The notes beneath the pieces were generated by a model that saw nothing but the letters and a program-made list of their open reading frames with translations, was not told the origin of the DNA and made no database searches. Positions 5,908 through 16,216 of a DNA stretch of 39,947 bases are shown here, piece by piece. The position numbers and the translations under genes were made by a program. Source of the DNA: Nitrososphaerota archaeon (lineage in GTDB: Archaea; Thermoproteota; Nitrososphaeria; Nitrososphaerales; Nitrosopumilaceae); contig JACZSC010000003.1 of the NCBI GenBank assembly GCA_022574415.1, forward strand, positions 1 to 39,947. Direction: 5' to 3'. The stretch's first letter is position 1. Each line of letters starts with the position of its first letter.

Positions 5908-6945
5908 TTACATTTTTGGTTCTAAACCTTTTGCAATTCTCAACGAATCAACTAACCCATCTGCATATCCAATACTAAGAATCGCCACTTCCTCTTTACC
6001 CTGTTCCAAGAATTTTTCTGCATCGCGAATATATAATTCCGCATTCTCCAGAACCTCTTGAAATTCCTTAGAATCCTTATAGTAAGGTCCTATTTCTTTG
6101 AGTGCCAGCCTCACCATTGGAACATATTTCTCCAGCATTTGTTTTGGAATATTTTTAATTTTATCAGAATTGTCAAATGGCTGATCTAGACATTTTGTCA
6201 AAATCTTAATCGCGTCTGCCTCGGTAAAATGCAGTTTTCCGGGGATGATGATAGTGTGTGGCGGCTTTCCAAAATCGCTTTTTACCAGCTTTGAAATTTT
6301 TCCAGCCATGATTGATTGGGTTTTTAACCCAATTCTGGAGGCAACAATTGCAAAAGTGGATGATGTGATCACATTTCTTTTTTGTTCTTTTTCCGTATCA
6401 AGTAATGCATTCAGTGCATTATTCGGTTTAAGGAAAAATTTTGAATCTTGATCGTATTCCAACAACAGCAAAGTGTGGTTGCCATCAATCAAGTTCTTGT
6501 AGATAATGTAGTATGGAGTAGCCATCGTTTTTAATTCCTGGACGATCGTTACAATTCGACCTACTTTGTAATAGTGTAGACCACTTTCTCCCACCAAAGA
6601 TGTAAGAGATGATGCCGCGTGAACCGTTTGTGTTTTGATTTTATTCTTTATAGCCCTGGTTCTTAGTTCAATATGAGTAGTAGCTATGTAGGGATCCCCA
6701 TAGGACAGTAAAACAACTTTTTTCTTTTTTGCGTTATCCAAAATTTCATTTCCGTCTTCAACTAGCCATCTTTTCGCAATTTTCAATTTTGATTTTGCAA
6801 GTTTTCTTATTTTAGAAATCTCTGCTGTAGAAATTGGGCTAGTGAACTGTTCCAGGTAAACTATGTTAGAATCTTTCAGAAGTTTTTGAGTTGCAACTGA
6901 AATGGAATCAATTCCAGAAATACCTAAACCAACAAACCATAACAT
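5908..6945 (-). CDS. dph5: Diphthine synthase fused to a C-terminal DUF357 domain
   Basis: An S-adenosylmethionine-dependent methyltransferase that methylates the modified histidine of elongation factor 2 during diphthamide synthesis. Residues 1 to about 255 match the tetrapyrrole-methylase fold of archaeal Dph5: MLWFVGLGISGIDSIS, LLSYGDPYIATTH, HAASSLTSLVGESGLHYYKVG. Archaeal Dph5 is normally about 260 residues. Here another 85 or so residues follow and resemble DUF357 (AELYIRDAEKFLEQGKEE, then SIGYADGLVDSLRIA). The start ATG at 6945 overlaps the lysK stop by one base (TAATG), so it is the tail gene of the lysine cluster transcript. The role of DUF357 is not known to me. Confidence 0.88.
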   Translation of the reverse strand: MLWFVGLGISGIDSISVATQKLLKDSNIVYLEQFTSPISTAEISKIRKLAKSKLKIAKRWLVEDGNEILDNAKKKKVVLLSYGDPYIATTHIELRTRAIKNKIKTQTVHAASSLTSLVGESGLHYYKVGRIVTIVQELKTMATPYYIIYKNLIDGNHTLLLLEYDQDSKFFLKPNNALNALLDTEKEQKRNVITSSTFAIVASRIGLKTQSIMAGKISKLVKSDFGKPPHTIIIPGKLHFTEADAIKILTKCLDQPFDNSDKIKNIPKQMLEKYVPMVRLALKEIGPYYKDSKEFQEVLENAELYIRDAEKFLEQGKEEVAILSIGYADGLVDSLRIAKGLEPKM

Positions 6946-8072
6946 TATTTCTTCTTTCTGTCATGAAGTCTTTTTAAATGGTGTAAGGTTTTCTTTAGGA
7001 CCTCAATTCCCCTCAGATATTCATCAATTGAAACACTTTCGTTGATGGTGTGCGATGCATGAGGGTCTCCAGGTCCATATGTGACTACTGGAATCTTGAG
7101 TCTGTTCCCAATTACGTTCATGTCTCCAGTTCCAGTTTTTCTTATCAATGTGGGCCGAGTATGTTCAATATCTAAAACCCCTAAAGTGAATGCTCTAACA
7201 AGTGCGGAGTTGTGTGCAGCCTCAAATGGTTCGGTTTCATCTAGTATTGAGTAGAACGCCTCGACGTTACGTTTTTTAGCAATCTCCTTAACCGAAGTTG
7301 CAATTTTCTCTTCTACCATTTTGCAGTTCATGTGCACAGGAATTCTAATGTCTAATGTAGACACACATTCTTTTGGAGTAATATTGTGGCTGGAACCCCC
7401 TTTGATTTCAGTAAGTGTCGCAGTCAACATCGTGCCCTTTGTTTTTTCTTTCTGATCTGCTTCTAACATATTTTTCAATTCCGTTGTGAATACTGCTGAT
7501 TCTTCAATTGCATTCTTTGAGAGCCACGGTGCACTCGCATGAGAGCTGTCGCCAACATTGATTCGCAGATTGATTGCAAGTCGTCCTTTGTATGCAATTG
7601 TAACTTGCTTCAAGCCGCTGGGCTCGCCAAATATCGCATAGTCAAAATCAAGATGATCCCTTACAAGACTTTTAATTCCTGTGGCGTTACCTTCCTCGTC
7701 TACAGCACCAACAAATGTCACTGTCCCATTGTTGTTCTGTACTGACGCAGCAGCAAACAGCATTGCTAACAGTGGAGCCTTTGCATCTGAAGCTCCTCTT
7801 CCAAACAGCGTGTCTCCTTCCTTTCTAACCTTTATTTTTCCAGGAACAGTATCCATGTGTCCGCACAACAGAATTTTTGGAGATCCAGAACCTTTCTTTG
7901 CAATCAAGTTTCCAACATCATCAATGTGTATGTCTTCGAATCCAAGATCGTCACACTTGTCTGCAAGAAATTCTGCTAAGGATTTTTCTTCAAGCGATGG
8001 AGTGTAAAGTCTTAGAGCTTTCTCTAGCATCTTAACTGCAAATCTAGGTGTTACCGTAAAACTAGTGTCCAA
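6945..8072 (-). CDS. lysK: [LysW]-lysine/[LysW]-ornithine hydrolase (M20 peptidase)
   Basis: A 375-residue M20 family metallohydrolase that releases lysine, and probably ornithine, from the LysW carrier protein. Metal-site motifs are visible: CGHMDTVPG, GRGASDAKAPL, DEEGNATG and FGEPSG. The start is TTG at 8072, two bases after the lysX stop. The first internal ATG (residue 15) would cut into the N-terminal helix, so TTG is preferred. The location behind homocitrate synthase, lysW1 and lysX supports this function over ArgE or DapE, which belong to the same superfamily. No second copy is seen next to the arginine half, so one LysK probably serves both pathways, as reported for Sulfolobus. Confidence 0.88.
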   Translation of the reverse strand: MDTSFTVTPRFAVKMLEKALRLYTPSLEEKSLAEFLADKCDDLGFEDIHIDDVGNLIAKKGSGSPKILLCGHMDTVPGKIKVRKEGDTLFGRGASDAKAPLLAMLFAAASVQNNNGTVTFVGAVDEEGNATGIKSLVRDHLDFDYAIFGEPSGLKQVTIAYKGRLAINLRINVGDSSHASAPWLSKNAIEESAVFTTELKNMLEADQKEKTKGTMLTATLTEIKGGSSHNITPKECVSTLDIRIPVHMNCKMVEEKIATSVKEIAKKRNVEAFYSILDETEPFEAAHNSALVRAFTLGVLDIEHTRPTLIRKTGTGDMNVIGNRLKIPVVTYGPGDPHASHTINESVSIDEYLRGIEVLKKTLHHLKRLHDRKKK

Positions 8073-8074
8073 TT

Positions 8075-8923
8075 CTAATTTCTAAAATTAATTGTGTAGT
8101 CTAACATCAGCGATGGAATATCTACTTCACAGACTCTAACCGTGTTCTTAAATTCTGTAGTATTGTTAACTTCATGAACCAACAATCCCCTATCTTCGCT
8201 TTCCATCAAATCTACACCAACTATTTGTCCCTGGACTGCATTTTTTGCCTTAATACATATTTCTTCCATCTCGTTTGTTATCTCACACTTCTCCGCTCTT
8301 CCTCCTAGAGCTATATTGGTCTTCCAATTTCCATTACCAGAATACCTGTAAATGGCAGCAACTATCTCATCCCCTACCATAATTGCTCTGATATCTCGCG
8401 GTGGCCTTTTTACGAATTCCTCTAGATAGTGAATCTGGTAGATTGGATACATTTTCTCCCTGCTTTCAATAATTCCCTCAGCAGAATCTTTATCATTAAT
8501 TTTTGAAATCATTCTGCCCCAGCTTCCAACCGTTGGTTTAATGATCTTTGGATATCCGACCTTTTCCAAGCTCTCTAGAGCCGCATCCCGTGAAAATGCT
8601 ACTGTTGCATGAGGGGTTGGAACACCTTCTTTTTTTAGCAACATGTGTGTATACAATTTGTTTCCAGCAAAAATTCCAGTCTTCAGACAATTAATTACGT
8701 CCACACCCATTCCTTCAAGCGCAGCGGTTGAGTGAACATTTCTGTAATAGCTTACACATCGCTGTAGTACAGTGCCATATCCATCTTTTTCTTTGTCAAG
8801 ATCTAAAAACAGTTTTTTGCAGTCTATCATCTGAATGTTGATGTTCTTTTTTTTACCAGCCTCTAGTAGAGCTTTTTCTTCCCAACGGATGGTATCATAA
8901 AGAACAGTGATGTCAGGAGTCAC
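8075..8923 (-). CDS. lysX: LysX, alpha-aminoadipate-LysW ligase
   Basis: A 282-residue ATP-grasp ligase of the RimK/LysX family that joins the alpha-aminoadipate amino group to the C-terminal side chain of LysW. Visible motifs are PKIIKPTVGSWGRMISKI (ATP binding), RPPRDIRAIMVGDEIVAAIYR and LLVHEVNNTTEFKN near the C-terminus (metal and substrate). The start is GTG at 8923, overlapping the lysW1 stop as GTGA, which implies translational coupling with its carrier. A paralogue (ArgX) lies at 13850-14707. This copy is assigned to lysine because it sits between homocitrate synthase and lysK; residue-level specificity was not established. Confidence 0.85.
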   Translation of the reverse strand: MTPDITVLYDTIRWEEKALLEAGKKKNINIQMIDCKKLFLDLDKEKDGYGTVLQRCVSYYRNVHSTAALEGMGVDVINCLKTGIFAGNKLYTHMLLKKEGVPTPHATVAFSRDAALESLEKVGYPKIIKPTVGSWGRMISKINDKDSAEGIIESREKMYPIYQIHYLEEFVKRPPRDIRAIMVGDEIVAAIYRYSGNGNWKTNIALGGRAEKCEITNEMEEICIKAKNAVQGQIVGVDLMESEDRGLLVHEVNNTTEFKNTVRVCEVDIPSLMLDYTINFRN

Positions 8924-9087
8924 TGCCCCCAGTCCTCGCCAACCGTTTGGGCTGGCTTTAGTTCAAAACCTTCTGCAGCTTTAACCAATTCAAAACTTGC
9001 ACCGCATTCTGGGCAAGTTACAATTTCCCCCTCTAAGGCATCACCTGGGACAGATATGTCAGCATCACATTCAGCGCATTTTGTCAT
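8920..9087 (-). CDS. lysW: LysW-type amino-group carrier protein, terminal Gln variant
   Basis: A 55-residue carrier whose C-terminus holds the substrate during lysine synthesis. Four zinc cysteines are present as CxxC pairs, C4/C7 (KCAEC) and C25/C28 (TCPECG). The acidic tail ends GEDWGQ. Known LysW proteins end EDWGE and attach the substrate to the terminal Glu side chain; here the last codon is CAG (8925-8923), giving Gln. ATG at 9087 overlaps the stop of the upstream homocitrate synthase (ATGA), and the stop overlaps the lysX GTG. The second copy at 14707-14874 has the normal ending. The family call is firm; whether this copy works as a carrier in the usual way is open. Confidence 0.9.
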   Translation of the reverse strand: MTKCAECDADISVPGDALEGEIVTCPECGASFELVKAAEGFELKPAQTVGEDWGQ

Positions 9088-10274
9088 TTTACTCTCTTCC
9101 TTTCCACATCTTTGTCATTAATTATCCTTTTTTCAAACCTGCCCTCTAACGGAATATCGATTAGGTCCCCCATCCTTAGACTCTTGAGACCTGATGCAAC
9201 AGCTTGTGCCCTTTCGTCATTTTTCTCTAGACCTAGAAGAGACATGAGGTAGGCAGCACCAGTCTTTCCTACTAATTCACCAAAGACGATTCTCCGTCTG
9301 TTTCCAACTACACGTGGAGGGATTGGCTCGTATGCAGCCGGGTTTCTTAGAATTGCCGCTAGGTGGGTTCCAGCTTTGTGTTTGTAAGCAGAAGAACCAA
9401 CAATTGGTTTTGAATCGTATGGTTTTATCGAAGTATAGTCTTCAATTAACCTTGAAAGATCCTGCAACATATCTAATCTAAAATCATTTGGAGACTTGTA
9501 CAAGTATGTTAATGCTACCGCAACTTCTGCAAGGGGAGGAATTCCAGTTCTTTCACCAATTCCATCAATAGTGGTGTGTATTTGATCAACACCAGCTTCG
9601 CATGCAGCAAACGCATTAGCTAATGCAAACCCAATGTCATTGTGAACATGCGCGTCAAGAGGAGTATCAATTTCATTGCGAACCTTTTTTACAAAATTAT
9701 ACATTCCAATGGGCCGTAGTATGCCAACAGTATCGGGTAAACTAATTCTATCCACACCAGCTTCTTCTAGCGAACTACAAACCTGCAACAAAAATTTTGG
9801 ATCAGCTCTGCTTCCATCTTCAACAGTGAATCTAATTTTCAGACCATGAGATTTTGCATATTCTACAGTCTCCACTGCTCTCTTGAGTGCCTCATCCCGT
9901 GAAATTCTAAGCTTATCTTTGAGATGAATGTCAGAAATTCCAAGATATATCGCTACCCATTTTGCATCGCATCTTAATGAAATATCAATGTCCTCCTTCA
10001 GTGCTCTACCATGTGATACAATGTCTGCCTTTAGCCCTTGCTTGATTATTGTTCTAGTAGATTCTTCATGATCTTTTGAAATTACTGGAGAAATTTCTAT
10101 CTGATCAACTCCAAAGTAATCTAGCATCCATGCAATCTGAATTCGTTGCTTGTTTGTAAACGAAACACCTGGATGCTGTTCACCCTCACGTAGAGTACTG
10201 TCTAGGACACGTATCTTCTTCGGCTTTTCATCGAACGCGTTGTAGATGTTTGCATAGTAATTCGGATCATTCAT
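9084..10274 (-). CDS. lysS: Homocitrate synthase (isopropylmalate/homocitrate synthase family)
   Basis: A 396-residue DRE-TIM aldolase. It probably condenses acetyl-CoA with 2-oxoglutarate, the first step of the alpha-aminoadipate route. The signature LDSTLREGEQHPGVSFT is at residues 24-40, and the metal HxH is in DAHVHNDIGFALANA. A C-terminal part follows (SSAYKHKAGTHLAAILRNP), typical of the homocitrate/citramalate group. Isopropylmalate and citramalate synthases are the alternatives; the next genes lysW1, lysX and lysK make homocitrate synthase most likely. A TATA-like box with an overlapping inverted repeat lies just upstream (10300-10315), so this gene probably starts its own transcript. 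Confidence 0.82.
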   Translation of the reverse strand: MNDPNYYANIYNAFDEKPKKIRVLDSTLREGEQHPGVSFTNKQRIQIAWMLDYFGVDQIEISPVISKDHEESTRTIIKQGLKADIVSHGRALKEDIDISLRCDAKWVAIYLGISDIHLKDKLRISRDEALKRAVETVEYAKSHGLKIRFTVEDGSRADPKFLLQVCSSLEEAGVDRISLPDTVGILRPIGMYNFVKKVRNEIDTPLDAHVHNDIGFALANAFAACEAGVDQIHTTIDGIGERTGIPPLAEVAVALTYLYKSPNDFRLDMLQDLSRLIEDYTSIKPYDSKPIVGSSAYKHKAGTHLAAILRNPAAYEPIPPRVVGNRRRIVFGELVGKTGAAYLMSLLGLEKNDERAQAVASGLKSLRMGDLIDIPLEGRFEKRIINDKDVERKRVK

Positions 10275-10390: not shown

Positions 10391-10810
10391 TTATGAAACG
10401 GTACGAAGAATTATGACCGTATTTGTGTCAATCACGCCAGAAATTTTTCGTAAGGCATCAATGCTGTTATTAATTTCAGCAATGTTTGGTGCGCTAATTA
10501 TGACAGTAATGTCGTACTGTCCTGTAATTTCATAGACTGTCTTCACGCCTTCGAGCTTTGTGAGTTTGTCTGATACCTTGGATGTGTCTATTGTCGAGTC
10601 AACTGATATCAACACAATTGCGCTTGTGGCGTTTTTATCTCCAACTTCTACAGTAAATTTTTTAATCGTACCGTTGTCCACCATGTTTCTCACTCTTCTT
10701 CGTACAGCTGACTCGGACAGCTTTAGTTTTTTTCCAATATCCACAAATGATTCTCTAGAGTCATTTCTCAGAAAATTTATAATTTTTTCATCGATCTTGT
10801 CGCTAAACAT
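10391..10810 (-). CDS. Lrp/AsnC-family regulator (LysM-like)
   Basis: A 139-residue DNA-binding regulator. An N-terminal winged helix (residues 4-55: DEKIINFLRNDSRESFVDIGKKL, then LSESAVRRRVRNMVDNG) is followed by a RAM ligand-binding domain of about 75 residues (YEITGQYDITVIISAPN). Its ATG overlaps the end of the aminotransferase gene by 8 bp, so it is co-transcribed with the arginine/lysine genes. Position and family recall LysM, the lysine-responsive Lrp protein of Sulfolobus lysine clusters. The candidate operator at 10300-10315 lies directly downstream, before lysS. The effector (lysine or arginine) cannot be read from sequence. Confidence 0.88.
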   Translation of the reverse strand: MFSDKIDEKIINFLRNDSRESFVDIGKKLKLSESAVRRRVRNMVDNGTIKKFTVEVGDKNATSAIVLISVDSTIDTSKVSDKLTKLEGVKTVYEITGQYDITVIISAPNIAEINNSIDALRKISGVIDTNTVIILRTVS

Positions 10811-11978
10811 TGTGCCGCTTTTCCTCCCTGGTCAGCAATATATCTAACGTTTCTAAAACCTTTGTGATGTCGTCTTTAGATATAACTAGGGGAGGTAAAA
10901 ACCTTAGAATATTCCTGCCAGAATAAAGTATTAGAACTCCATTCTTTATTCCATCCAAAATAATATCCTTTACTTGAAACTTTAGCTCCACTCCAATCAT
11001 AAGACCTTTGCCGCGAATTTCTCGAATAATCCTATGTTTTTCCTTTAGACGTTCCAAACCTTCACGTAGTCTTCGTCCCATCTTTTCTGCGTTTTCAATC
11101 AATCCATCCTGTGTTAAAGCTTGAAGTGTTGCAGTTCCAGCCGCACAAGAAAGAGGATTACCACCAAATGTAGAAGAGTGTTCACCTTTGCCCATTACTG
11201 CAAGTATTTCTGGTTTGACAAGAGTAGCGCCCATTGGAACTCCCCCGGCGATTCCTTTTGCAATGCACATTATATCCGGCGTTGTGTTCCAATGTTCAGA
11301 CGCCCACATTCGGCCTGTTCTACCTAATCCAGATTGAATTTCGTCAAAAACGAGAAGGATTCCTTTATCGTCACACATCTTTCGCACCTCCTGCAAAAAT
11401 CCATTCGGCGCAACGTGAATTCCACTCTCTCCTTGAATTGGTTCCAAGATAATAAAACCCGTATCATCGTCAACAGTTTCTCGCAATGATTCAATGTCAC
11501 CAAACTTTGCAAACGATGTTTTTTCTACCAACGGCTGAAACATTTTTCTATATTTTGGATTAAACGTCAAAGAAAGTGCACCCATCGACTTTCCATGGTA
11601 CGAACCATTCATTGCCACCATTCCTTTCTTTCCAGTAAACTTTCTAGCAAATTTTATAGCAGCTTCAACAGATTCAGCACCGCTGTTGTTAAGATGAACT
11701 TGCGTTAGACCCTGGGGCGCAACACCAATGAGAGTCTTTAGGAACTCCTCTCGAGTTTTGTTGTAGAGTGAGCTGTGAACAGTAATTATTTTTTCGAGCT
11801 GAGACTTTAATGCATTAACAACTCGTTCATTTCTGTGTCCCACTATAGCTACCCCATAACCGCCCATGCAGTCTATGTACTCTTTACCATCTACATCCCA
11901 AACATGAGAACCGAGTCCTTTTTCCACTGTAACAGGAAATCTCTGATACAGATTTCCCATAAATTCATCTTCAGTCAT
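10803..11978 (-). CDS. lysJ: LysW-bound semialdehyde aminotransferase (LysJ/ArgD)
   Basis: A 391-residue class III PLP aminotransferase that converts the LysW-linked semialdehyde to LysW-lysine or LysW-ornithine using glutamate. Visible motifs: NSGAESVEAAIKFAR (phosphate/substrate region), VFDEIQSGLGRTGRMWA (PLP Asp) and CIAKGIAGGVPMGA with the Schiff-base lysine. The ATG overlaps the LysZ stop as ATGA. Only one copy is visible, so it probably serves both lysine and arginine synthesis. Acetylornithine aminotransferase is the family alternative, but the LysW genes in the same operon decide the substrate form. Confidence 0.9.
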   Translation of the reverse strand: MTEDEFMGNLYQRFPVTVEKGLGSHVWDVDGKEYIDCMGGYGVAIVGHRNERVVNALKSQLEKIITVHSSLYNKTREEFLKTLIGVAPQGLTQVHLNNSGAESVEAAIKFARKFTGKKGMVAMNGSYHGKSMGALSLTFNPKYRKMFQPLVEKTSFAKFGDIESLRETVDDDTGFIILEPIQGESGIHVAPNGFLQEVRKMCDDKGILLVFDEIQSGLGRTGRMWASEHWNTTPDIMCIAKGIAGGVPMGATLVKPEILAVMGKGEHSSTFGGNPLSCAAGTATLQALTQDGLIENAEKMGRRLREGLERLKEKHRIIREIRGKGLMIGVELKFQVKDIILDGIKNGVLILYSGRNILRFLPPLVISKDDITKVLETLDILLTREEKRHNV

Positions 11979-12775
11979 TTTTTAATTACCGTACAGTTTT
12001 CGTGTGCAATGGCTGCTGATATTGGATTTTCTTTTTGTCCATTTGCTATTATCGCTTCTTTTACCCCCATCTCTAAGGCTTCTGTTGCAGCTAGGATTTT
12101 TTTTTCCATACCGAACCCAACCTTTGGTCGAATCTCTTTAGCTTCTGCTAAGGTCAAGTCCATAACAAGTTTTTCATCCATCAGCAAACCGTCTACATTT
12201 GTAATGAACAAAACTTTGTCCGCCTGAACTTTACCAGCAACGTACGCAGCCGCTCTGTCTCCGTCTACGTTAAGAAAATCATACTCCTCACTGATCGCAA
12301 TGGGCGAAATCACAGGAGTGTATCCTTGCTCTAAAAGAGACTTGATAAATTTCACATTTACCTCGGTAATTTTACCCGTATATCCTCCGTCAATTACCTG
12401 TTTTCGTCCTTTTTCGTTTACGATGATTAGCTTCTTTTTTCTTTCTGCCTGCAATATTTTGGCGTCAACGCCCGAGAGACCAATCGCATTAACTCCATTT
12501 TTTTGTAAAAGACGAACAATTGTTTTGTTGATCCTTCCAGACATTACCATTGTGAAAATTTCTGCAGTTTCTTGGTCGGTGTATCGACTTTTGATTCCAC
12601 TTGGAGAAACAACAAACTTTGGTTCCTTTCCAAGCTGTTTAGAAACTTTTGTAACCTCTTTTCCTCCACCGTGTACAAGAATCACTCCTTCACTTTCTAC
12701 TACTTTTTTGATATCGGAAATCGTAGTTGAATGTAGATTATCAACTACACTCCCACCAATTTTGATTGTGATCAT
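11975..12775 (-). CDS. lysZ: [LysW]-aminoadipate/[LysW]-glutamate kinase (LysZ/ArgB)
   Basis: A 266-residue amino-acid kinase family protein that phosphorylates the carboxylate of LysW-bound aminoadipate or glutamate. The N-terminal ITIKIGGSVVDN and VILVHGGGKEVTKV loops bind phosphate, and the C-terminal VLFITNVDGLLMDE and GFGMEKKILAATEALEMG complete the pattern. It starts at the ATG at 12775, two bases after the LysY stop, and overlaps lysJ by 4 bp. A normal acetylglutamate kinase has the same fold; the LysW context favours the carrier-bound substrate. Confidence 0.9.
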   Translation of the reverse strand: MITIKIGGSVVDNLHSTTISDIKKVVESEGVILVHGGGKEVTKVSKQLGKEPKFVVSPSGIKSRYTDQETAEIFTMVMSGRINKTIVRLLQKNGVNAIGLSGVDAKILQAERKKKLIIVNEKGRKQVIDGGYTGKITEVNVKFIKSLLEQGYTPVISPIAISEEYDFLNVDGDRAAAYVAGKVQADKVLFITNVDGLLMDEKLVMDLTLAEAKEIRPKVGFGMEKKILAATEALEMGVKEAIIANGQKENPISAAIAHENCTVIKK

Positions 12776-12777
12776 TA

Positions 12778-13824
12778 TTACACGGGTGTCAGTGGAGTAT
12801 ATTTAAGACCAGCCATTTCGTCAAAGCCAGCCATGATGTTCATGTTTTGTATAGCAGAACCCGCCGCACCTTTCATCAGGTTGTCAGATGCTGAAAGGAT
12901 AATCAATCTGTTGTTATCTTCATCCAGCTCAAAGCCGATATCGCAAAAGTTGGAACCAACTATGAACTTTGGATCTGGGAATTTGTATAAACCATTCTTG
13001 TCACGAATCAATCGAATGAACTTTTCTTCACCATAAGCTTGGCGATAAAGTTTCCACAATTCTTTTTCATCTATATGGTTTTTCATGAACGTGTGATTGG
13101 TACACAAGATTCCACGAACCACATCAACTGCATGTGGACTCATAGAGATATGAATTTTCTTTCCTGCAATCTCACTTAGTTCCTGCTCAATCTCACCAGT
13201 GTGTCTGTGTTTTGCTGGTTTGTACGGTCGAATAACCCCAGCTCGCATTGCGTGTGCAGTTCCTGAACCAGAACCTGCACCTGACGAACCAATCTTTGCA
13301 TCGACAATAATGTGTTCAGTGTCTATGAGATCGTTTCTAATAAGTGGCGCAAGTGCTAAGATAGAAGTAACTGCCATGCATCCTGGGCACGAAACTAGTT
13401 GCGCGTTTTTGATTTGTTCTCTGTGCATCTCTGGGATTCCAAAGACAGACTTGGGTAGGTAATCTGGGTGAGGATGTTTCCATCCGTACCACTTGTCATA
13501 ATCCTTAGGATCATGTAATCTATAGTCTGCACTCAAATCAATGATCTTGATGTCTCTATCGTATAGCGTCTTGACAATTTCTGTCGCGGTACCGTGTGGG
13601 ACTGCTGTGAAAACAAGATCGCACTTGTCAGACATTTTGTCATAGTCTAATTCAGAAAATGTTAGATCAGTGAATCCTTTCAAGCTGGGATGCACTCTGT
13701 GTATGTACTCCCCAGCATGTTGTCGTGATGTTACCATAGTGATCTCCACTTCTGGATGGTTTACCAAAAGTCGGAGCGTTTCTCCTCCCACATAACCTGA
13801 AGCACCTACTACGCCTATTTTCAT
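12778..13824 (-). CDS. lysY: [LysW]-aminoadipyl/glutamyl phosphate reductase (LysY/ArgC)
   Basis: A 348-residue NADPH-dependent semialdehyde dehydrogenase that reduces the acyl phosphate made by LysZ. The N-terminal Rossmann motif GVVGASGYVGGETLRLL lies at residues 3-19. The catalytic cysteine is in VSCPGCMAVTSILALAPL, and a conserved SPHAVDVVRGI follows in the catalytic domain. Length is standard for ArgC. It lies between argX (25 bp gap) and lysZ (2 bp gap), and is the only copy seen, implying shared use by lysine and arginine synthesis. Confidence 0.92.
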   Translation of the reverse strand: MKIGVVGASGYVGGETLRLLVNHPEVEITMVTSRQHAGEYIHRVHPSLKGFTDLTFSELDYDKMSDKCDLVFTAVPHGTATEIVKTLYDRDIKIIDLSADYRLHDPKDYDKWYGWKHPHPDYLPKSVFGIPEMHREQIKNAQLVSCPGCMAVTSILALAPLIRNDLIDTEHIIVDAKIGSSGAGSGSGTAHAMRAGVIRPYKPAKHRHTGEIEQELSEIAGKKIHISMSPHAVDVVRGILCTNHTFMKNHIDEKELWKLYRQAYGEEKFIRLIRDKNGLYKFPDPKFIVGSNFCDIGFELDEDNNRLIILSASDNLMKGAAGSAIQNMNIMAGFDEMAGLKYTPLTPV

Positions 13825-13849: not shown

Positions 13850-14707
13850 TTATTTCCTAATGGAATTTACCGCGAACTCTATCATTTCTTTTGGAATGTT
13901 TTTTTTCGCAACTTTTACGAGTCCTTTGAATTCCACAGTATTGTTTACTTCATGAACTAACAGACCGCGCTTTTCATCTTCCATAAGATCCACTCCTAAA
14001 ATTCCACCACCCATGGCCTTTGAGGCCTTTTCAACCAAATCTTCCATTTCACTCGTAATCTCACACAGCTCTGGTTCTGCTCCAAGAGCTATGTTGGTCT
14101 TGAATCCACCATCAGACTTTCTGTACATTGCAGCGATTGCTCTACCTCCAATCGAAATCACTCGAATGTCTCTTGGTGGTCGGTTTATCAATTCCTGTAA
14201 GTAGTAAATTCTATCGTGAGGGCCATCGGTCAGCTCTCTTATCTCAATAATTGCATCAAGCGTATCCTTGTCTTTAATTTGCATCACTCCTCGACCCCAA
14301 CTTCCTATGACGGGTTTTATTACGAGTGGAAATCCAACCCTGTCTACATTTTCCATTGCACCGTCCTTTGAAAAAGAAAAATATGTCTTTGGGGTGGGAA
14401 TGTTATTTTTTTTCAGCAGCAATGACATGAATAGCTTGTTACCGCAGTTATTCGCCACATCAAACTTGTTGATTACAGGAACATCTAGGAACTCTAGACA
14501 TGCTGTAAAGTGCAGTCCTCTAAAGTAGCTCACACATCGTTCAAGAACTACGTCGCCAAAATCAAAATCACTTTTTTTACTGTCCGTGTTTATTTGAGTT
14601 ATCTTTGCATCCAGTACAGATGTTTCATTGCCCAGATCTTTTGCTTCTTTCTGTAGTAATTTTTCTTCCAACCTAAGTCGATCAAAAACGATACAAATCT
14701 TTGACAT
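13850..14707 (-). CDS. argX: ArgX, glutamate-LysW ligase (LysX paralogue)
   Basis: A 285-residue ATP-grasp ligase homologous along its length to the LysX at 8075-8923. Motifs include PLVIKPVIGSWGRGVMQI, RPPRDIRVISIGGRAIAAMYR and LLVHEVNNTVEFKG. It is assigned to the arginine branch (glutamate to LysW) because it lies between argG/lysW2 and the lysY-lysZ-lysJ genes. Its ATG overlaps the lysW2 stop by one base (TAATG), coupling ligase to carrier. Near the C-terminus it has EFKG where the lysine copy has EFKN, a possible specificity difference that I cannot confirm. If the assignment were swapped, the operon layout would be hard to explain. Confidence 0.8.
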   Translation of the reverse strand: MSKICIVFDRLRLEEKLLQKEAKDLGNETSVLDAKITQINTDSKKSDFDFGDVVLERCVSYFRGLHFTACLEFLDVPVINKFDVANNCGNKLFMSLLLKKNNIPTPKTYFSFSKDGAMENVDRVGFPLVIKPVIGSWGRGVMQIKDKDTLDAIIEIRELTDGPHDRIYYLQELINRPPRDIRVISIGGRAIAAMYRKSDGGFKTNIALGAEPELCEITSEMEDLVEKASKAMGGGILGVDLMEDEKRGLLVHEVNNTVEFKGLVKVAKKNIPKEMIEFAVNSIRK

Positions 14708-14874
14708 TACTCTCCCCAGTCTTCGCCTACGCTTTCTGCTTGCTTAAGCTCGACATTTGATCCTTCTTTTTTTGATATTTCAAAGTCAGCTCCGCAATCA
14801 GGGCAGGAAACTATTTCTCCAACCGAGGCATCGTCAGGGATGTTTAGACTCGCATCACATTCTGGGCAGTTCAT
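14707..14874 (-). CDS. LysW-type carrier protein, canonical EDWGE end (arginine branch)
   Basis: A 55-residue LysW protein too short for many ORF filters. Zinc ligands are C3/C6 (NCPEC) and C24/C27 (SCPDCG), and the tail ends GEDWGE with the terminal Glu that normally accepts the substrate. It starts at the ATG at 14874, 8 bp after the argG stop, and its TAA overlaps the argX ATG. With argX and argG next to it, it is probably the carrier for ornithine/arginine synthesis. It differs from lysW1 at many positions but has exactly the same length, so the two look like old duplicates rather than a recent copy. Confidence 0.92.
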   Translation of the reverse strand: MNCPECDASLNIPDDASVGEIVSCPDCGADFEISKKEGSNVELKQAESVGEDWGE

Positions 14875-14882
14875 GTTTCAGT

Positions 14883-16070
14883 TCACCTTTTCCTTTGTAA
14901 TTTATTAGCTTCTGTTGACTGCATTCCCCACAATTCAACGAAACCTTTTGCTAATTTTTGGTCAAATGTGGATCCTTTTCCATAAGTTGCAACCTTGTAA
15001 CTGTACAATGAGTATTTTGATTTTCGACCAACAACCCTCAAGCTTCCATTGTACAGTCTCATCTTGACCGTACCTGAAACCCGTTTTTGGGTTTGATCAA
15101 TGAATGCATCCAGATCCTTTCGTAGGGGATCCTCCCACAAACCAGAGTAGACCAGCCAGGACCACTCGTCATCTACGAGAGATTTAAATTTATTTTCGTG
15201 TTTTGTGTGAACCATTTTTTCAAGATCAGAATGTGCTTCAATCAAACAAGTAGCAGCGGGTGTTTCATAAACTTCACGAGATTTAATTCCCACAACCCTG
15301 TCTTCAATATGATCAACAATTCCTATTCCTGCAACTCCTGCCTTTTTGTTGATATACTCAATTAGAGAAATTGGATTTAGATTCTTTCCATCAACTGCAA
15401 CAGGCACGCCTTTCTCAAACTGTATTTTCAAATAGCTGGGATTTGTAGCCAAGTTTTTTGTCTTTACCCAGATGAAAGCATCACTAGGAGGCTCTTTGTA
15501 AGCATCCTCTAACACTCCTCCTTCAATTGCACGGCCCCAGAGATTTTGATCAATACTAAACTTTTTTGCCACGGAATCAATTTTAATTCCATGCTTCTTT
15601 GCAAACTGTAATTCTGTTTTACGATCCAAATTCAAATCCCTGATTGGTGCAATGATTGGTAGATTAGAACCAGAACTGAACGTTACATCGAACCGCACTT
15701 GGTCATTTCCCTTACCAGAGCAACCGTGTGCAAGTGCAGTTACCTTTTCTTTTTTTGCAATCTCCAGTACCTTTTTTGCAATTAGTGGTCGCGCGAGAGC
15801 TGTTGCCAAACAATATTTTTTTTGATAAAGTGAATTCGCTTTGATGGAAGGAAAAATAAAATCACTTACGAATTCTTTTTTCGCATCAACGTTGTAATGC
15901 TTTTTCACACCGAGCTTTTTTGCTTTTGCAGCAATCTTTTTTTGATCATCACCCTGTCCAACATCTACTGTAACTGTGACAACATCCATGTTGTATTTCT
16001 CCTGCAAGTACTTGACAACAACCGAGGTGTCTAAACCCCCAGAGAATGCAAGTATAGCTTTTTTGGACAT
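14883..16070 (-). CDS. argG: Argininosuccinate synthase
   Basis: It joins citrulline and aspartate with ATP in arginine synthesis. The N-type ATP pyrophosphatase loop AFSGGLDTSVVVKYL is at the N-terminus. Further family segments are GCSGKGNDQVRFD and APIRDLNLDRKTELQFAKKHGI, followed by a tetramerisation C-terminus. The protein is about 395 residues from the ATG at 16070, which puts MSKKAILAFSGG at the usual place. An in-frame GTG at 16082 would add four residues and is the alternative. It is the first gene of the arginine/lysine cluster. No argF or argH is in the window. Confidence 0.93.
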   Translation of the reverse strand: MSKKAILAFSGGLDTSVVVKYLQEKYNMDVVTVTVDVGQGDDQKKIAAKAKKLGVKKHYNVDAKKEFVSDFIFPSIKANSLYQKKYCLATALARPLIAKKVLEIAKKEKVTALAHGCSGKGNDQVRFDVTFSSGSNLPIIAPIRDLNLDRKTELQFAKKHGIKIDSVAKKFSIDQNLWGRAIEGGVLEDAYKEPPSDAFIWVKTKNLATNPSYLKIQFEKGVPVAVDGKNLNPISLIEYINKKAGVAGIGIVDHIEDRVVGIKSREVYETPAATCLIEAHSDLEKMVHTKHENKFKSLVDDEWSWLVYSGLWEDPLRKDLDAFIDQTQKRVSGTVKMRLYNGSLRVVGRKSKYSLYSYKVATYGKGSTFDQKLAKGFVELWGMQSTEANKLQRKR

Positions 16071-16216
16071 GATGGATCTCACTGACTATATTTTCAAATT
16101 TATCTTTTGTGTTATGTCGCCTCAATTTTTTTTGTCAACAAATTTCTGGCCTGAATTTTCTCATAGCTCAAGCTAAAATTCGAGTATTATTTATCCGCCT
16201 GCTATAACACTGTTTT
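16071..16216. promoter_or_regulatory. Divergent promoter region argG / ABC transporter
   Basis: On the plus strand TATTATTTA (16185-16193) starts 32 nt before the ATG at 16217, a good leaderless promoter. Upstream of it AATTTTC, AGCTC and AAGCTAA (16154-16176) form a module also found before nirK. On the minus strand AAGATAAATTTG (about 16096-16107) is a TATA candidate for argG, 26-37 nt before its ATG. No gene or RNA was recognised. Confidence 0.5.

Follow-up and report, generated by a model that had tools for sequence, protein, structure and literature searches.

The window, the whole 39,947-nucleotide stretch of DNA analysed here, carries on its minus strand a lysine and arginine biosynthesis cluster in the gene order argG, argW (ending in Glu), argX, lysY, lysZ, lysJ, an Lrp-like regulator, lysS, lysW (ending in Gln), lysX, lysK and a DphB-like gene. 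The cluster holds two ligases and two carriers, but LysK and the middle enzymes are each encoded there once only. The gene of the lysine-branch amino-group carrier, lysW (8920..9087), lies directly downstream of a lysS-like homocitrate/isopropylmalate synthase gene (9084..10274), with which it overlaps by 4 nt, and shares a further 4 nt with lysX (8075..8923), encoding an ATP-grasp ligase with a GSWGR motif (133-137) and a TIGR02144 score of 326 bits (cut-off 275.6). It is followed by lysK (6945..8072), which encodes an M20-type [LysW]-lysine hydrolase (TIGR01902, 271.8 bits, cut-off 163.1; match to the [LysW]-lysine hydrolase 5xoy at 1e-50) and is the candidate LysW-Gln deamidase discussed below. 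Upstream are the lysJ/argD aminotransferase gene (10803..11978, the cluster's sole copy), the lysZ/argB [LysW]-aminoadipate/[LysW]-glutamate kinase gene (11975..12775; NF010662, 302 bits, cut-off 194), the lysY/argC reductase gene (12778..13824; TIGR01850), the arginine-branch ligase gene argX (13850..14707; GSWGR present), the arginine-branch carrier gene argW (14707..14874) and an argG-like argininosuccinate synthase gene (14883..16082), which adjoins argW, was identified by sequence reading and is a conserved neighbour. The substrate signatures of the two ligases, EFKNT in LysX (alpha-aminoadipate type) and EFKGL in ArgX (glutamate type), fit alpha-aminoadipate and glutamate, respectively, if the Asn-Thr/Gly-Phe rule for ligase substrate preference reported for Sulfolobus (PMC10433800) is applied. 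The Lrp/AsnC-like regulator gene (10391..10810), also identified by sequence reading, keeps its place between lysJ and lysS in almost every related cluster, and its product may be the operon's sensor of lysine or arginine.

Both carriers are 55 aa long and score above the 75-bit cut-off of NF041070, the NCBIfam model of archaeal LysW/ArgW carriers, with 89.1 bits for LysW, covering profile positions 3-57 of 57, and 92.1 bits for ArgW. The window LysW is like the carriers of this model and of the PDB (it matches the LysW chains 3vpb_E, 3wwl_A and 5k2m_E) in its size, its zinc-ribbon cysteines (CAEC and CPEC, in columns that are invariant or Cys/His across 128-129 carriers) and its EDWG tail, and its gene stands in an operon with those of LysX, LysZ, LysY, LysJ and LysK, as expected of the carrier family. 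The difference lies in the last residue. Studied LysW and ArgW proteins have a C-terminal Glu, with the substrate attached to its side chain (PMC10433800), whereas the 3' end of the window lysW (minus strand, 8940-8920) reads GGC GAG GAC TGG GGG CAG TGA, giving GEDWGQ, in which CAG (8923..8925) encodes Gln. The argW 3' end reads GAA GAC TGG GGA GAG TAA, giving GEDWGE. An earlier note on this DNA had pointed to both endings, and its minus-strand readings and coordinates are exact. By descent and layout, as far as these can be read from sequence, the window LysW is a member of the carrier family, yet it is not Glu-ended as encoded.

The third base of the terminal CAG is also the G of the lysX GTG start (CA-GTG-A). 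Such overlaps of carrier stop and ligase start (CAGTGA, TAATG) are present at 8920-8923 and 14707 in the window and at three further loci (L144, L372 and L373). With a TGA stop, the third base of the terminal Gln or Glu codon is fixed to G (or to A with an ATG start), and CAA appears with TAA or TAG stops. What the lysX overlap determines is the third base of the codon and not the residue, because GAG-TGA yields the same GTG start and is present in 19 Glu carriers. Hence, the overlapping lysX start was rejected as the cause of the Gln: it accounts for CAG before TGA, not for Gln itself.

Spread of the Gln ending

The earlier note had listed a base error among its options and proposed looking for GAG in close relatives, which mostly turn out to have CAG. 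In the other three sampled species of the genus the carrier likewise ends in CAG and the paralogue in Glu (Gln in 4/4 species), and a terminal CAG for Gln was found in 27/27 further family members compared. Among 400 sampled genomes of the class, most of them drafts, the GEDWGQ-stop pattern occurs in 262, compared with 0/400 for a backwards control pattern. The window's family (f1) accounts for 196 of these (196/221 sampled), f2 for 6 and f3 for 60 (60/62 sampled), and the pattern is absent from f4-f24 within the 400 genomes. It is also carried by named assemblies without a MAG label, among them Nitrosopumilus salaria BD31, Nitrosotenuis chungbukensis MY2 and Nitrososphaera sp. AFS. Given that hundreds of independently sequenced relatives share the same terminal Gln, a base error or single-isolate oddity can be dismissed with near certainty, and the note's option of a real biochemical variation is right: the Gln is recurrent and conserved among relatives.

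Named records with the Gln ending include Nitrosopumilus, Nitrosarchaeum, Nitrosopelagicus, Nitrosotalea, Nitrosotenuis, Cenarchaeum, Nitrososphaera, Nitrosocosmicus, Nitrosopolaris and Nitrosocaldus. Judged by these names, the Gln-ended carrier spans the ammonia-oxidising archaea, nearly all of which encode it. The textbook chemistry of these carriers rests on a C-terminal Glu; one of Earth's most abundant microbial groups encodes Gln in its lysine carrier. A Gln-ended LysW is not mentioned in the open papers that we searched (LysW glutamine, deamidation, Thaumarchaeota, Nitrososphaera). Several hits of the GEDWGQ-stop pattern in non-archaeal genomes (Anaerolineae, Idiomarina, Streptacidiphilus and others) have no zinc ribbon and are chance matches, as is the match in G456, whose real LysW ends in Glu.

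Pairing each carrier with the ligase beside it brings out every combination of endings. LysW-Gln alongside ArgW-Glu prevails in the window's family, in the Nitrosocaldus-like g23 and in G292. Both carriers end in Gln in G297, G289, G353 and G364, and both end in Glu in five genomes of the window's family (G147, G148, G113, G169 and G161), in G305 and in basal lineages. The states are swapped in G300, on the C338 contig of G403 and in G323 (two contigs). The earlier note was correct about Gln in this lysine-branch LysW, but Gln is peculiar neither to this organism nor to the lysine branch, as several Nitrososphaeraceae-like genomes have it in the arginine branch, part of them with Gln in both carriers and part with the states swapped. 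Conversely, both carriers have turned to Glu in a few Nitrosopumilus-like genomes. A restriction to Nitrosopumilales is ruled out by Gln endings in other lineages. Outside the window's order, in a survey that mainly covers Thermoproteota, the Gln state occurs in f32 (all six g90 genomes sampled with the pattern; 2/5 g117 genomes), f37, f55, f58 and Ca. Jordarchaeia, and in f55 even genus mates differ (Gln in G546, Glu in G511).

A LysX/ArgX tree was built quickly from 130 carrier-ligase pairs and has long branches outside the order; parsimony places on it 15 changes between Glu and Gln at the terminal residue, of which at least 8 are forced by well supported branches. The terminal site takes two states only, compared with 4-5 states at each of the other LysW sites with 14-16 changes, and the EDWG preceding it shows 0 changes on the tree. 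Every one of 264 distinct carriers ends in EDWGE or EDWGQ; this set was partly selected by pattern, and the set from protein searches agrees with it. Both CAG and CAA are used as terminal Gln codons.

Genomes with Gln-ended carriers only

Some species encode Gln in all their carriers. In three single-contig genomes (G288, G293 and G296), which match records named Nitrosocosmicus by sequence, whole-genome LysW-query searches found one carrier each, Gln-ended in all cases. Both LysX (EFKNT) and ArgX (EFRGA) are present in these genomes, and argX comes directly after argG with no argW between. A fourth single-contig genome (G297) has two carriers, both ending in Gln, and a single Gln carrier is found in G443 (single contig) and in six g90 genomes. 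No Glu-ended carrier was detected in the Gln-only genomes by the whole-genome LysW-query searches, for which two different queries were used on G288. The single-carrier, two-ligase layout of Gln-only genomes (g24, f32) is the same as in Sulfolobus, where a common LysW goes with separate LysX and ArgX. However, the Sulfolobus LysW ends in Glu, and the window has two carriers, Gln-ended for lysine and Glu-ended for arginine.

Alternative routes through DAP or ArgJ were considered and rejected, as DapB was not found in the 12 AOA genomes tested (including G288, G293, G296 and G297) and ArgJ was not found in the 16 AOA genomes tested. Judged by their gene content, Gln-only cells appear to make lysine with a Gln-encoded carrier, and probably make arginine with one too. 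Gln-only genomes keep LysX, and usually ArgX, in the absence of DapB and ArgJ, and therefore the Gln form is not simply a non-carrier. A non-carrier role had been another option of the earlier note, and it is contradicted by G288, G293, G296, G443 and the six g90 genomes. For the window one could suppose that only the Glu-ended ArgW acts as a carrier and supplies LysX as well as ArgX, given that the window genome does encode a Glu-ended carrier and that Sulfolobus uses one LysW for the two branches, according to the account of Ouchi 2013 given in PMC6038301. However, Gln-only species retain both ligases, and the terminal residue has switched in both directions in each branch, swapped and both-Gln genomes among them. 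In addition, the Gln forms keep the EDWG motif and the cysteines, and lysW-Gln is still coupled to lysX through the gene overlap. The non-carrier reading is removed for the Gln-only genomes and unlikely for the window itself, and a supply of both of its ligases from ArgW is highly unlikely.

Nitrososphaeraceae-like genomes (G288, G293, G296, G297 and others) also encode a LysA-like decarboxylase, which scores 235-254 bits, below the cut-off of 297.9, and occurs without DapB. It is possibly another decarboxylase of that family.

Proposed maturation of the Gln carrier

Replacing the terminal Glu of Natrinema ArgW with Ala abolishes arginine synthesis (PMC10433800), and therefore the terminal side chain matters. 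The earlier note had argued that with Gln in this place normal LysX chemistry needs prior deamidation or another attachment point, which we consider right: there is either an unnoticed maturation step in archaeal lysine/arginine synthesis or a different attachment chemistry. Our preferred reading, with a probability of roughly 0.6, is that LysW-Gln is a pro-carrier that would be deamidated once to Glu before LysX acts, most likely by LysK. Taken separately, deamidation by some enzyme is likely, and the assignment to LysK in particular is an even call. LysW would be translated as the pro-carrier and its C-terminal Gln hydrolysed once to Glu; LysX would then use ATP to activate the gamma-carboxylate of mature LysW-Glu and link alpha-aminoadipate to it through its amino group. 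LysZ, LysY and LysJ would process the LysW-bound substrate, and LysK would release lysine and regenerate LysW-Glu, with Glu as the presumed working, cycling form of mature LysW. LysK is the most likely deamidase because hydrolysis of the gamma-amide of the terminal Gln would be the same reaction as hydrolysis of LysW-gamma-lysine, except that ammonia would leave in place of lysine. Hence, a carrier needing activation is the best supported of the options left from the earlier note, although it stops short of a demonstration.

LysK scores above its family cut-off in 47/47 genomes, with one such copy in nearly all and two in G538. Its catalytic residues are intact: H72, D96, E126, E127, E150 and H341, assigned as metal ligands on the basis of the M20 family, are invariant across Gln lineages, Glu lineages and TtLysK (Thermus). 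The presence of LysK does not discriminate a deamidase role, because it is equally present in Glu-only genomes. As a counterpoint, LysK has a lysine-binding site, and hydrolysis of a bare amide is for this enzyme a candidate activity only. Deamidation might instead be carried out by another amidase or glutaminase, or by LysX itself, considering that Dop of the Pup system is a ligase homologue and not a metallo-hydrolase (PMC8599861), and that no experimental result singles out LysK. We nevertheless consider a different deamidase unlikely, since several origins of Gln in distant lineages are easiest to explain with a pathway deamidase that was already everywhere, as LysK is.

The ligases give no sign of having followed the carrier. 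Whether the partner ends in Gln or in Glu, LysX/ArgX show no difference in GSWGR (the motif that recognises the EDWGE tail), RDIR, the signature motif or the near-invariant residues, and over 8 independent pairs we found no ligase column that tracks the terminal residue, the best reaching approximately 3.6 of 8 in one direction. Adaptation of the ligase to Gln was rejected on this basis, and an unchanged ligase active site is what is expected if the ligase always meets Glu. A rival possibility is that LysX takes the Gln carrier directly, either at the terminal alpha-carboxylate or by amide-oxygen activation with release of ammonia, so that no Glu form exists. Gln is strictly kept across most of the clade, as if used as such, and for Dop acting on PupQ there is a proposal that ATP activates the amide (PMC8599861). 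However, use of the alpha-carboxylate needs neither Glu nor Gln, yet only these two occur, and a shifted substrate would have to suit LysZ, LysY, LysJ and LysK. By chemical reasoning, an amine and an activated amide would moreover give an amidine and not the normal product, and with no matching change in the ligase we regard direct use of Gln as improbable.

In archaea, Gln-tRNA is formed from Glu-tRNA-Gln. This intermediate is an existing mischarged tRNA, and in its unamidated form it could in principle insert Glu at the Gln codon during translation, without any deamidase. Mistranslation is, however, not codon-specific, and CAG and CAA both occur at this site. It would also be an inefficient source of an essential carrier, which makes this route scarcely credible.

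The deamidation of a pro-carrier has a counterpart in the Pup system. The encoded Pup terminus is Gln in many actinobacteria and Glu in others, and Dop carries out deamidation as well as depupylation, two reactions described as chemically equivalent (PMC8223512; PMC8599861). Like LysW, Pup is a small protein that is joined via the gamma-carboxyl of its last residue, which is Gln or Glu depending on lineage. Dop both cleaves the conjugate and makes Glu from Gln, and by analogy LysK may have such a double role here. The two systems differ in other respects: Pup and LysW are unrelated proteins with unrelated folds, and no homology is claimed; Pup goes onto protein lysines, whereas LysW goes onto free amino acids; Dop is a glutamine-synthetase relative, whereas LysK is a metallo-hydrolase; and deamidation is established for Pup but inferred for LysW.

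Within the window's family, lysW retains Gln (about 196 genomes versus 5) and argW retains Glu, with hardly any exceptions. Cost-free deamidation predicts a near-neutral site, so the kept Gln/Glu difference implies selection beyond simple maturation. It is possible that the difference distinguishes the two carriers or gates one branch. A more specific version, which we put forward tentatively and hold to be doubtful, is that Gln acts as an encoded lock: LysW would come off the ribosome inactive and be switched on by LysK, the enzyme that closes this very pathway, and lysine-branch supply would be gated apart from the Glu-ended arginine carrier. If true, the Pup/Dop arrangement would have been invented a second time, in an unrelated system and with several origins among archaea. 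For annotators, caution is advised, given that LysW models and metabolic models presume a terminal residue that is not encoded here.

Other carrier arrangements

Carriers without an adjoining LysX/ArgX, either extra or solitary, are present at L132 (G046:C37, 5210-5383), at L134, L136 and L138 of the Cenarchaeum-like g21 and at L186 (G009:C1). The g21 loci that were fetched have no argX-lysY-lysZ-lysJ block, and the last residue of their solitary carrier is Gln at L134 and L136 and Glu at L138. Two loci of the Nitrososphaeraceae-like genus g41 (L156 in G336:C55 and L153 in G403:C22) have no ArgW/ArgX between argG and lysY, and carry one LysW only, Gln-ended and accompanied by a LysX of the alpha-aminoadipate type. 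In Ca. Jordarchaeia, a distant archaeal group, a run of lysW(Gln), lysX, lysY, lysZ, lysJ and lysK is found at L211 and L260 and is an independent case of the Gln ending.
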